The notes under the pieces were generated by a model. The model did no database searches. It had not been told where the DNA came from and saw nothing but the letters and a program-made list of their open reading frames with translations. A program made the position numbers and the translations under genes. From the NCBI RefSeq assembly GCF_024448715.1, contig NZ_JAMOHZ010000002.1, positions 496,001-560,000 on the forward strand: 64,000 nucleotides of DNA, given 5' to 3'. The stretch is from Stutzerimonas stutzeri (GTDB lineage: Bacteria > Pseudomonadota > Gammaproteobacteria > Pseudomonadales > Pseudomonadaceae). Every line of letters starts with the position of its first letter. Position 1 is the first letter of the stretch. Below, piece by piece: positions 30,944-33,512 of this stretch.

Positions 30944-31339
30944 TCAACGCTTTTCTAGGTTGCGCATCGACACTTGGCTGTTCAGTGTCCAGAAGTCATA
31001 CAAGACGCCTATAAAAAACAGCCCGCCCGTGCAGAGATAAATCAGTCCGGTGATCCACTTGCCCTGGTACATCCGGTGCACGCCAAAAATCCCTAGAAAG
31101 GTCAGCAGAATCCAGGCGACTGTGTAATCAATCGGGCCAGGTTGAAAGCGCAGGTCGGCCTCGCGATCCATGGAGGGGATTAGAAACAGATCGATGATCC
31201 AGCCAATAAAAAACAGGCCGAGCGTAAAGAACCAGATGGTGCCGGTGATCGGCTTGCCGTAGTAGAAGCGGTGCGAACCGAGGAATCCAAAAATCCACAG
31301 GAGATATCCGATCAACTTGCTATGGGTGTTCTGCCGCAT
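30944..31339 (-). CDS. TM2-domain membrane protein
   Basis: Small inner-membrane protein of 131 residues with two tandem TM2 modules: LLWIFGFLGSHRFYYGKPITG with a following helix pair, then LLTFLGIFGVHRMYQGKWITG. Each module has the typical Gly-x-His-Arg-Phe/Met-Tyr segment between two hydrophobic stretches. The function of TM2 proteins in bacteria is not established. It is divergent from the SOS-boxed radical SAM gene, with 137 bases between the starts, so the LexA site might affect both, though it lies much nearer the other gene. Confidence 0.8.
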   Translation of the reverse strand: MRQNTHSKLIGYLLWIFGFLGSHRFYYGKPITGTIWFFTLGLFFIGWIIDLFLIPSMDREADLRFQPGPIDYTVAWILLTFLGIFGVHRMYQGKWITGLIYLCTGGLFFIGVLYDFWTLNSQVSMRNLEKR

Positions 31340-31420: not shown

Positions 31421-31469
31421 TTGCTCCATGAAACAGTCGTGATACTGTATGCACAAACAGTATCACGAC
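31421..31469 (+). promoter_or_regulatory. Promoter with LexA (SOS) box before the radical SAM gene
   Basis: CTGTATGCACAAACAG (31445-31460) fits the LexA consensus CTGT-N8-ACAG exactly at both half-sites. It is the core of a larger palindrome whose 13-base arms GTCGTGATACTGT (31436-31448) and ACAGTATCACGAC (31457-31469) are perfect complements around 8 bases. TTGCTC (31421-31426) and TACTGT (31443-31448), 16 bases apart, make a plausible sigma-70 promoter with the SOS box over the -10. The palindrome ends 7 bases before the ATG. Confidence 0.85.
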
Positions 31470-31476
31470 AGCCGAT

Positions 31477-32688
31477 ATGCAACTAATCGATAAACTTAGC
31501 GTACTCGCCGATGCTGCTAAATACGACGTGTCCTGCGCTAGCAGCGGCGCGCCAAAGCGCAGTTCAAAAGGCCGGAGCGGATTGGGCGCCACGGATGGCA
31601 TGGGCATCTGCCACAGCTTTACACCTGACGGCCGCTGCGTGGCGCTGCTGAAAATTCTACTGACCAACTTCTGCCTGTACGACTGCCAGTACTGCGTGAA
31701 CCGACGATCGAGCGACGTGCCTCGCGCCCGTTTCACGCCCGAAGAAGTAGTCACGCTGACCCTGGACTTCTACCGCCGCAACTGCATCAGCGGCCTGTTT
31801 CTCAGTTCCGGGATCATTCGCTCGGCGGACTACACCATGGAGCAGCTGATCCGCGTGGCCAAGCTGTTGCGCGAGGAGCACGAGTTTCGGGGCTACATCC
31901 ATCTGAAGACCATTCCCGACGCTGATCCGCAGCTTATTGCAGAAGCCGGCCGTTACGCCGACCGCCTCAGCGTCAATATCGAACTACCTACCGAAAGCAG
32001 CCTGATCCGCCTGGCGCCGGAAAAGCAGGTCGTGACCATCAAGCAGGCCATGCAGTCGATCCACCAGGGCGAGACCGAAGCCAATGCAGAAAAAAGCGCG
32101 CCGCGTTTCGCTCCTGCCGGGCAAAGCACGCAGATGATCATCGGTGCCGACGCTACCGACGACAGCACCATCCTGCATACCGCACAGGCGTTATATGGTG
32201 ATTTCCGCCTGCGCCGCGTCTATTACTCGGCGTTCAGCCCCATCCCACACAGTCCCAAGACCGTTCCCTTCGAGGCGCCGCCACTGTTGCGTGAGCATCG
32301 GTTGTATCAGGCCGACTTTCTCATGCGCGGCTACGGCTTCAAGGCCGGCGAACTGCTCACAGGGCCAGGGAATCTGGCGCTCGATATAGACCCGAAACTC
32401 GCCTGGGCGCTTTTCAACCGCGAGCATTTTCCTGTCGACCTGAACCGGGCCGAGCCGGCGCTGATTGCGCGCATCCCCGGAATTGGAATACTCAGCGCCA
32501 AACGCCTAGTCGCCCTGCGCCGGCAAAAGCGCATCCGCTTCGAAGACCTGACACGCCTTCGCTGCTCGCTGGAAAAAGCCAAACCTTTCGTCATCACCCA
32601 AGACTACCGACCGAGCCTGGCGAACCTGGAATCCGCCGCCTTACGCCATCAGTTCAGCGAAGGTCCTGTGCAGATGGGGCTATGGTGA
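31477..32688 (+). CDS. Putative DNA modification/repair radical SAM protein with C-terminal HhH
   Basis: Radical SAM enzyme of the family associated with DNA repair and uracil-DNA glycosylase-like partners (TIGR03916 type, from memory). The [4Fe-4S] motif is CLYDCQYC (Cx3Cx2C) near residue 67. The barrel continues with LSSGIIRSADYTMEQ, HLKTIPDADPQLI and LSVNIELPTE. The C-terminal part holds a helix-hairpin-helix, LIARIPGIGILSAKRLVALRR (DNA-binding type). No Shine-Dalgarno is visible: the LexA palindrome occupies that place. The stop overlaps the DUF4130 start (TGATG), so the two proteins are likely made together. Substrate and reaction are unknown; this is not HemW or spore photoproduct lyase by motif layout. 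Confidence 0.85.
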   Translation: MQLIDKLSVLADAAKYDVSCASSGAPKRSSKGRSGLGATDGMGICHSFTPDGRCVALLKILLTNFCLYDCQYCVNRRSSDVPRARFTPEEVVTLTLDFYRRNCISGLFLSSGIIRSADYTMEQLIRVAKLLREEHEFRGYIHLKTIPDADPQLIAEAGRYADRLSVNIELPTESSLIRLAPEKQVVTIKQAMQSIHQGETEANAEKSAPRFAPAGQSTQMIIGADATDDSTILHTAQALYGDFRLRRVYYSAFSPIPHSPKTVPFEAPPLLREHRLYQADFLMRGYGFKAGELLTGPGNLALDIDPKLAWALFNREHFPVDLNRAEPALIARIPGIGILSAKRLVALRRQKRIRFEDLTRLRCSLEKAKPFVITQDYRPSLANLESAALRHQFSEGPVQMGLW

Positions 32689-33512
32689 TGCGTCAGATAA
32701 GCTTCGACGGCAGCTTCGCTGGCTGGCGCGACGCCGCGCGTGATCTGCTCCGCTGCGGGGTCGCGCCCCACCAGGCAGAGTGGCTTGGCGGTAGCGATGC
32801 CGGCGGCCTGTTCGACGAGCCCGATGCGCTCGAACCGATCGAGCCGGCGCCACCGGTACGCATCCCGCGGCAATTGGTCGTCGAGCTGGAAAACGCGGCG
32901 CGCTTCCGCATCGATGACCGCTGGAGCTTGCTGTATCGCATCCTCTGGCGGGTCGCCAAAGGCGATCAAACGGCTCGGCTAGTCGGCGATATCGATGGCA
33001 GCGAACTGCATTCGCGAATCAAGGCGGTACGCCGCGAAGCGCATCATATGCATGCCTTTCTACGCTTCAGCCCGGCAAGCTCCGAGAGCGCTCCGGACTA
33101 TGTGGCCTGGTTCGAGCCTGCGCACGACATTCTGTGCAGTGCGGCACCGCACTTCGCCGAACGGATGGGGCTACATTCCTGGCTGATTGCAACGCCGAAT
33201 GATGCAGTGCTATGGGATGGACAGGACATGCATTACGCCAATCCTTGTCCGCCCGCTTGGCGACAGCTGGCGCAGACAGCAAAAGATCCTGGCGTAGAAC
33301 TGTGGAAGACCTACTACGAAAGCACCTTTAATCCGGCTCGACTCAATCGCGGCGTGATGCAGAGCAATCTGCCAGTGCGCTTCTGGAAGAATCTGCCGGA
33401 AGGAATGCTGATTCCTCAACTCATGAGTCGCGCGCGAGCCGGGGCACAATGTGACGGCCAAGCTGACAGCGTGACCAATAAGGCCGGCAAGCGTATCGGC
33501 CGGCCTCGTTAG
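32688..33512 (+). CDS. DUF4130/TIGR03915-type putative DNA metabolism protein, no UDG domain
   Basis: Second gene of the SOS-boxed pair, 274 residues from the ATG at 32688 (an ATG at 32682 would add two). Recognisable family segments are RIDDRWSLLYRILWRVAKGD, RIKAVRREAHHMHAFLRF, YVAWFEPAHDILCSAAPHF and YYESTFNPARLN...MPVRFW-like NLPVRFWKNLPE. In many bacteria, as I recall, this domain is fused to a uracil-DNA glycosylase-like (UdgX) domain; here the protein ends soon after, with a 29-residue basic tail. Its biochemical role is not known to me. Co-translation with the radical SAM protein suggests a shared DNA-repair task. Confidence 0.82.
   Translation: MRQISFDGSFAGWRDAARDLLRCGVAPHQAEWLGGSDAGGLFDEPDALEPIEPAPPVRIPRQLVVELENAARFRIDDRWSLLYRILWRVAKGDQTARLVGDIDGSELHSRIKAVRREAHHMHAFLRFSPASSESAPDYVAWFEPAHDILCSAAPHFAERMGLHSWLIATPNDAVLWDGQDMHYANPCPPAWRQLAQTAKDPGVELWKTYYESTFNPARLNRGVMQSNLPVRFWKNLPEGMLIPQLMSRARAGAQCDGQADSVTNKAGKRIGRPR
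33481..33506. terminator. Hairpin at the end of the DUF4130 gene
   Basis: Stem AGGCCGG (33481-33487) / CCGGCCT (33500-33506) lies within the last codons, followed by CGTT only. The gene converges on pilU with 8 bases between stops, so a terminator inside the coding end is plausible. Confidence 0.45.

Follow-up and report, generated by a model that had tools for sequence, protein, structure and literature searches.

A LexA-boxed radical SAM/DUF4130 gene pair of Stutzerimonas stutzeri, very probably a conserved SOS operon in a variant without uracil-DNA glycosylase

The DNA analyzed here, called the window below, is a stretch of 64,000 nucleotides from the 4.6-Mb genome of Stutzerimonas stutzeri (contig NZ_JAMOHZ010000002.1, positions 496,001 to 560,000; G000:C2:496001-560000 in our numbering, in which G denotes a genome and L a locus). 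It contains two overlapping genes, one for a radical S-adenosylmethionine (SAM) protein and one for a DUF4130-type protein, that are preceded by a putative LexA operator (Table 1). The pair is real and conserved and very probably forms an SOS-controlled operon of a known, uncharacterized family, in the variant that lacks a uracil-DNA glycosylase (UDG) domain. The radical SAM open reading frame (ORF) matched TIGR03916 with 543.7 bits (curated cut-off, 343.5) and also PF04055, and the second ORF matched TIGR03915 with 200.2 bits (cut-off, 112.25) and PF13566 (DUF4130) with 124.5 bits (cut-off, 27); the names TIGR03916 and TIGR03915 are NCBIfam annotations, not functional assignments. An earlier note on this DNA, made from the sequence alone, had described two overlapping genes of these kinds behind a LexA box, and this description was confirmed. 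It had also given the radical SAM protein a DNA-binding helix-hairpin-helix tail. Indeed, a match to HHH_3 was found in the protein (E = 1.2e-05), but its 25.8 bits lie just under the Pfam cut-off of 27. The two ORFs overlap by 7 nt; with an alternative ATG at 32688 the overlap would be the 1 nt of TGATG, which is the spacing in the relatives L120 to L124. The closest relative among the 80 named loci considered below comes from Stutzerimonas stutzeri (93% identity), and near-identical records were possibly left out of that set. PADLOC gave no defence-system match. Clustering of 1,500 neighbouring ORFs, in which some clusters are antisense shadows from ORF calling, revealed no third operon gene: apart from the radical SAM and DUF4130 genes, no partner was shared by many families.

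Table 1. Position of the putative operator, the two genes and their predicted functional elements in the window
Feature	Position	Strand	Remarks
LexA operator	31436..31469	.	Core CTGTATGCACAAACAG at 31445-31460 within an inverted repeat with 16-nt arms
Radical SAM protein, 403 residues, TIGR03916 (rSAM_link_UDG)	31477..32688	+	NCBIfam, Pfam, AF2 model, fold matches
DUF4130 protein, 276 residues, TIGR03915, without UDG domain	32682..33512	+	Start possibly 32688; Pfam DUF4130 part 32916-33401
Cys20 codon, first extra cysteine (the three are N-terminal, invariant and not part of the radical SAM motif)	31534..31536	+	Cys in 72/72
Cys45 codon, second extra cysteine (GICH)	31609..31611	+	Cys in 72/72
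Cys54 codon, third extra cysteine (DGRC)	31636..31638	+	Cys in 72/72
Codons Cys66 to Cys73 (Cys66, Cys70, Cys73), CxxxCxxC radical SAM [4Fe-4S] motif	31672..31695	+	72/72
Helix-hairpin-helix region, residues 319-359, DNA-binding type	32431..32553	+	Pfam HHH_3 below cut-off; weak ComEA/RuvA profile matches

The core of the operator, CTGTATGCACAAACAG, is the sole match to CTGT-N8-ACAG in the window and ends 16 bases upstream of the start of the radical SAM gene; the arms of the inverted repeat that encloses it (31436-31451 and 31454-31469) are 94% complementary. The core pattern proves little alone, being near chance in the window and in the genome: 0.59 matches were expected in the window, at least one was found in 44 of 100 shuffles, and 29 sites genome-wide compare with 21 for the reversed control pattern. 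The genome contains the longer form TACTGT-N8-ACAGTA in two perfect copies, the window operator and one before an imuA gene; with up to one mismatch allowed, this form is only modestly enriched (seven sites versus four for the control). Of the 29 core sites, 19 were inspected, some with ORFs cut by the stretch ends, and 9 of these precede the window pair or damage-type genes: the pair itself, recA, lexA, two imuA genes, dnaE2/SRAP, a topB-like (topoisomerase III-like) gene, a FAN1-like nuclease gene and a PA0069-family gene. One boxed imuA has an SRAP-like gene on the opposite side, and the boxed dnaE2 has a divergent SRAP gene. The two LexA-boxed imuA genes and the two SRAP-family genes beside LexA boxes (L003, L230 and L016, all of the window's genome) are perhaps a duplicated mutagenesis cassette. 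The earlier note had placed the window box over the -10 element of a promoter, but a strict sigma-70 scan of the operator region returned 0 promoters (0.8 in shuffles). A gene for a TM2-domain membrane protein (window 30944-31339, minus strand) is divergent to the pair; about 106 bases separate its start from the LexA box, and it could share the operator.

LexA control is judged to be more than chance because boxes of the lineage's own type recur before relatives of the pair. We surveyed 299 Pseudomonadota genomes; 72 of them exceeded the TIGR03916 cut-off, and the 71 loci other than the window were fetched and scanned from -250 to +30. Of these loci, 22 belong to the window's class and 49, here called alpha-type, are those labelled "same phylum", which lie outside that class and whose own class is not stated. 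The direct repeat GAAC-N7-GAAC or GTTC-N7-GTTC was present in 49 of the 49 "same phylum" loci and in 14 of 2,185 control windows, and the gamma motif CTGT-N8-ACAG was found in none of the 49. This direct repeat is listed for Alphaproteobacteria (PMC8565304). Among the same-class loci, 14 of 22 have the exact gamma motif (control, 4 of 940 windows), and 5 more have a one-mismatch box at -31 to -33. With up to one mismatch allowed and the position restricted to -60 to -5, the count was 17 of 22 versus 48 of 4,458 control windows of 56 bases; in longer control windows, of 280 bases, the one-mismatch box was found in 56 of 892. The boxes are also well placed, since 58 of 63 exact boxes start between -60 and -15, with 29 falling at -25 to -28. 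The species of the 80 named loci partly coincide with those of the set found by hidden Markov model (HMM). In these loci, the gamma motif was seen before the pair in 14 of 28 Gammaproteobacteria and in 15 of 19 Betaproteobacteria; for the alpha motif the count was 25 of 29 Alphaproteobacteria (controls, 8 and 22 of 3,047, respectively). Of the 47 Gamma- and Betaproteobacteria, 11 more have the one-mismatch form, although the one at -127 is probably a chance match. Of the four remaining loci, from three Verrucomicrobia and one planctomycete, one has a scanned motif. Where present, the predicted box follows the LexA motif of its lineage and is not explained by chance.

In five loci (L079, L080, L164, L165 and L167) the LexA-type box is absent and the motif TCTCA-N5-TGAGA stands at exactly -38. 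Three of these loci are from Xanthomonas and two from family f13, and they group together on the tree. The motif was found in 5 of 6,623 windows of pair loci; no pair apart from these five has it upstream. Four such genomes contain 9, 8, 5 and 3 copies versus 0, 0, 0 and 1 of the reversed pattern, and 38 of the 40 genomes of this family have the motif. In 42 motif loci (L243 to L284), it precedes the radical SAM gene in five (three from the genomes of the first sighting), uvrA in two, recA in two, an Lhr-type helicase gene in one and a DEAH-box helicase gene of the TIGR03817 type in seven (five by profile and two by BLAST); the remaining 25 have no such gene in the view used, in which several ORFs are cut by the stretch. 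In this lineage, the pair thus appears to be kept among DNA-damage genes by a different operator, TCTCA-N5-TGAGA, which also precedes recA, uvrA and helicase genes; the motif is a candidate DNA-damage operator that replaces the LexA box.

All 72 genomes over the TIGR03916 cut-off were also over the TIGR03915 cut-off, and a control genome, that of Caulobacter vibrioides, likewise gave scores for both families. DUF4130 was present in all 71 fetched loci. In 54 of these it is fused to a UDG domain, which is UdgX-like: the best solved match of one example was 6iod (E = 5.8e-48), with GEQPG and the KRRLH loop aligned. The R-loop histidine, which forms the covalent bond in UdgX, was found in 54 of 54 fused copies and the motif-A glutamate in 53 of 54. 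KRRIH and GEQPG are described as marks of UdgX, which bonds covalently to abasic DNA (PMC10359453). UdgX (from Mycobacterium, PDB 6ail and 6iod, and others) thus resembles the C-terminal domain of the relatives' DUF4130 proteins but is absent from the window, where the DUF4130 ORF ends at 276 residues and matches no UDG; in the window's genome, the best TIGR03914 match reached 30 bits, below the cut-off of 190. A tree was made of the 148 radical SAM proteins (of 152 rows) with a known UDG state; 102 of these proteins belong to fused loci and 46 do not, with at least 13 changes of state; these are not 13 clean losses, because the count cannot separate gain from loss and frameshifts in metagenome bins may mimic loss. 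Rows of the Pseudomonadaceae and of Halomonadaceae type are without the fusion, with the exception of L108 (G054). This locus, from Pseudomonadaceae, keeps a DUF4130-UDG fusion in which the R-loop lysine is lost, the histidine is kept and HPA replaces HPS; its UDG domain is perhaps a UdgX in decay.

The versions seen are therefore radical SAM with DUF4130, as in the window, radical SAM with DUF4130-UdgX, as in most fetched loci, and, in a few cases, DUF4130 with or without UdgX and without radical SAM. The last version was found in G174, G185 and G233 and in a second copy of G268; in all four a LexA-type box before DUF4130 is kept, and no radical SAM gene lies beside DUF4130 in the stretches read. 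The G268 copy (L240:3165-4009; G268:C5) is a sub-threshold DUF4130-UDG fusion with CTGTATGGATATACAG upstream, in a genome that also has a full pair. G071 has a broken, sub-threshold DUF4130 remnant. Because UdgX is absent in several branches that keep radical SAM and DUF4130, we take the radical SAM/DUF4130 pair to be the core and UdgX an accessory part.

All 72 radical SAM sequences have cysteine in the same six alignment columns, and no further cysteine column is conserved. These counts come from the HMM-found set alone, since the named loci were picked with patterns containing Cys45 and Cys66. C66, C70 and C73 form the radical SAM motif and are preceded by C20, C45 and C54; His46, Asp51 and Arg53 beside the extra cysteines are invariant as well. 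The three extra cysteines probably hold a second iron-sulphur cluster. In the AF2 model of the protein (pLDDT, 86.0; pTM, 0.85), the best VIA fold matches were human lipoyl synthase (8tsk_A; Z, 18.1; root-mean-square deviation, 3.3; 225 residues aligned) and HydE (7o1o; Z, 18.0; deviation, 2.5; 217 residues aligned), and MqnE and biotin synthase followed within about 1 Z unit of the best; 8vcw, of the lipoyl synthase/HydE/biotin synthase class, had a Z of 17.1. Foldseek ranked HydE first and MiaB 14th. Identity in the rows 8tsk_A, 7o1o and 8vcw is 9 to 16%, and the window protein differs from this class by its added helix-hairpin-helix region. The N-terminal auxiliary-cluster cysteines of lipoyl synthase (LipA) are spaced CX4CX5C, from which the C-x24-C-x8-C of the window protein differs. 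Weak profile matches of 53 members included ThiH, MoaA, HydE, CofG/CofH, MqnE and LipS1, and ComEA and RuvA chains were among the weak solved-structure matches of the radical SAM profile (E = 0.0066 to 0.092). Spore photoproduct lyase was not among the best 25 of 53 profile families or the best 50 fold rows, an absence that is no exclusion. The alignments used 24 of 72 (A1), 53 of 81 (A2) and 49 of 79 (A3) sequences; A3 has a few short rows (e.g., L183).

The DUF4130 protein of the window had no match among solved structures by sequence, and the matches of the alignment profile to solved structures begin at profile position 275 or later, which is the UDG part. Its AF2 model has a pLDDT of 90.6. 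When this model was compared with the PDB by Foldseek, RecJ, Cdc45 and other DHH proteins were among the best rows, with weak scores (E of at least 0.04, probability up to 0.94), and a second library likewise had DHH-type phosphohydrolases among its top rows (E of at least 0.037). VIA gave RecJ with Z up to 6.9 over residues 1 to 201 and 8a8k as the best row with Z 7.5, a level that is common without a clear match. RecJ and the DHH-DHHA1 proteins thus supply many of the best fold matches in two libraries, but the scores are weak, the window protein has no DHH string and no DHHA1 match was listed for 49 DUF4130 members. A DHH-like fold of DUF4130 is a weak, tentative lead suggested by these models.

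The COG4277 of the literature is presumably TIGR03916. LexA control of the family has been predicted for Clostridium acetobutylicum in print since 2013 (PMC3828012); the pair CAC3343-CAC3344 of that organism is of the same TIGR03916/TIGR03915 family by name and shares the two-gene layout and the predicted LexA control. COG1573-COG4277 was placed in the SOS network of Bacteroidetes in 2021, with Verrucomicrobia and Alphaproteobacteria cited (PMC8565304). With LexA control in print for Clostridium and Bacteroidetes, the term "undescribed" used in the earlier note was too strong. The Bacteroidetes system is described with a uracil-DNA glycosylase, whereas the window pair has no UDG module, and the published reading as uracil-glycosylase base excision does not cover the UDG-less form. 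In 2013, DUF4130 was called a predicted mutagenesis-related enzyme and linked to "SplB-like radical SAM photolyases" and UDG (PMC3765255). For Acinetobacter sp. Tol 5, an increase of a gene so named upon drying is described (PMC13130816). In the accessible part of a fitness paper on P. stutzeri RCH2, the pair is not named. In agreement with the earlier note, we found no reaction for the family in the open full-text PMC literature, nor did we find there a paper that treats UdgX together with radical SAM. SOS membership had thus been predicted before, and what is new here are the split into core and accessory, the six-cysteine pattern, the operator swap in the Xanthomonas lineage and the tentative DUF4130 fold.

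The earlier note had also named PA0069 of Pseudomonas aeruginosa, from lists of the LexA regulon, as a homologue of the radical SAM gene. This homology was rejected. NF033668 ("PA0069 family radical SAM protein") was not among the 10 matches of the window protein at E 10, TIGR03916 was the sole match at E 0.001, and BLASTP against the PA0069-family gene of the same genome gave E = 0.29. That gene (L001:1501-2593; G000:C4, ~59.8 kb) starts 3 bases after a LexA box, CTGTATCTATATACAG, and matches NF033668 with 502.4 bits (cut-off, 360). It likewise combines radical SAM with a LexA box but belongs to a different family. If PA0069 does stand in the P. aeruginosa LexA lists, as we presume, these lists concern a gene of the L001 type and not the window gene; no paper treating PA0069 together with LexA was found in the open full-text PMC literature.

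We tentatively propose, with a confidence that stops a little short of even, that the pair is a LexA-repressed damage operon in which DUF4130 presents a lesion to the radical SAM enzyme for reversal or trimming, with UdgX as an accessory. Upon cleavage of LexA, both proteins would be made together. DUF4130 would be the DNA- or lesion-handling hub that binds or presents the lesion, a role suggested because it is the sole part common to all versions seen. The radical SAM protein would have a barrel of the LipA/BioB/HydE type, a C-terminal helix-hairpin-helix and a second iron-sulphur cluster on the extra cysteines, and its 5'-deoxyadenosyl radical would reverse or trim the damaged nucleotide presented by DUF4130, after which synthesis could continue. 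A fused UdgX would add uracil excision and covalent capture of abasic sites as another way to find or hold the lesion. The UdgX link points to a uracil-derived or abasic-type nucleotide as the likeliest substrate, a choice that is a guess. A DNA context of the pair is suggested by the helix-hairpin-helix region, by the fusion of relatives to UdgX and by the DnaE2 and/or ImuB genes close to the pair at 19 of 151 loci. A bolder version, which we consider doubtful, is that DUF4130 is a shrunken RecJ/DHH-type protein that lost the nuclease centre, kept the DNA-binding half and serves as an exchangeable hub for a two-cluster radical SAM enzyme and a self-crosslinking uracil glycosylase; the SOS response would then use radical chemistry to process a uracil- or abasic-derived lesion.

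The putative operator, the two genes, their pairing and co-occurrence, the fusion to UdgX and its absence, and the cysteine pattern can be read from the sequences; the reaction, the substrate, the second cluster and the DNA binding are all inferred, and this weighs against the proposal, as do several of the data. The absence of UdgX in the window weakens the uracil/abasic guess. G174, G185 and G233 are over the DUF4130 cut-off without radical SAM, and the two proteins are not strictly co-dependent. At 10 of the 19 inspected box sites of the window's genome no damage gene is evident, the ORFs there being unannotated. Three of the 71 fetched loci (L048, L079 and L080) have no recognized box, and 24 of the 80 named loci have no exact box, 13 of which also lack the one-mismatch gamma form. 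In the AF2 model, the extra cysteines are in part located where the pLDDT is below 50 (residues 21-31 and 33-42); metal loops modelled without their metal often score low. Sequence kinship of DUF4130 with RecJ was not found by hhalign (E = 0.28 versus 0.31 for an unrelated control; RecJ profile from the 18 of 30 RecJ loci that passed a filter of 500 to 900 residues).

Other explanations have to be considered. It is barely credible that the LexA box arose by chance and that the pair stands outside the DNA-damage response: the near-chance frequency of the core pattern in the window and the genome would allow it, but lineage-type boxes recur before relatives against exact-box control rates of 0.4 to 0.6% of windows, and the 58 of 63 boxes at -60 to -15 also argue against it. 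The pair could instead be a mutagenesis accessory that modifies lesions or the polymerase environment for translesion synthesis by ImuA-ImuB-DnaE2 rather than repairing DNA. At 19 of 151 loci (L067, L068, L064, L175, L182, L192 and others), the fetched stretch includes genes for DnaE2 and/or ImuB, named by eye; LexA boxes are common to the pair and the imuA/dnaE2 genes, and "mutagenesis-related enzyme" is an earlier label of DUF4130 (PMC3765255). However, 132 of the 151 loci have no such neighbour in the stretch, and we consider this role rather unlikely. An enzyme that uses its radical on abasic deoxyribose, including that held by UdgX or SRAP, and thereby releases or trims a protein-DNA or interstrand crosslink would fit the R-loop histidine of all 54 fused copies, as well as the two SRAP-family genes beside LexA boxes and the LexA-boxed FAN1-type nuclease gene of the window's genome. 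But UdgX is absent here and from several branches, and DUF4130-UdgX also occurs without radical SAM, so that release by the radical SAM protein cannot be obligatory; crosslink release appears unlikely.

Direct reversal of a thymine photoproduct, as by spore photoproduct lyase, would be in line with the "SplB-like radical SAM photolyases" that were linked to DUF4130 in 2013 (PMC3765255), and CxxxCxxC and the DNA context fit. Yet the nearest profiles are ThiH, MoaA, HydE, CofG/CofH, MqnE and others, the best fold rows are LipA, HydE, BioB and similar enzymes, and the protein has three extra cysteines. The absence of spore photoproduct lyase from the best 25 of 53 profile families and the best 50 fold rows does not exclude such a lyase, which we consider distinctly improbable. 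The PA0069-family gene is perhaps a better candidate for the SplB-like SOS gene of this genome. Lipoyl synthase uses an N-terminal three-cysteine auxiliary cluster. A LipA- or MiaB-like enzyme that inserts sulphur into DNA, sacrificing its second cluster as the sulphur source, or that makes another base or backbone modification, is therefore suggested by lipoyl synthase heading the VIA list, by MiaB in the Foldseek list and by the three invariant extra cysteines. The cysteine spacing is unlike that of LipA, however, and a DNA modification made only upon damage is hard to rationalize, which leaves this reaction just as improbable as the lyase.

Two further observations concern the surroundings of the relatives. 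A LigD-like cluster, named by eye, lies in the fetched stretch of four loci. In L241 (CAKLQH020000003.1), which is named "Acinetobacter phage MD-2021a", the pair stands beside glyS, glyQ and aroE, and the stretch looks like a bacterial chromosome filed as phage.

To our knowledge, spore photoproduct lyase and its relatives are the only enzymes for which radical SAM chemistry acting directly on DNA lesions has been established. A further radical SAM enzyme that is apparently unrelated to these and is kept in damage gene sets under different operators in different lineages could represent a new repair reaction. In the bolder version given above, with DUF4130 as an exchangeable hub, this SOS enzyme would differ from every repair pathway that we know of. 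The correction regarding PA0069 prevents confusion of two SOS radical SAM genes, and the results on the cysteines, the hub and UdgX make specific tests of the proposal possible.

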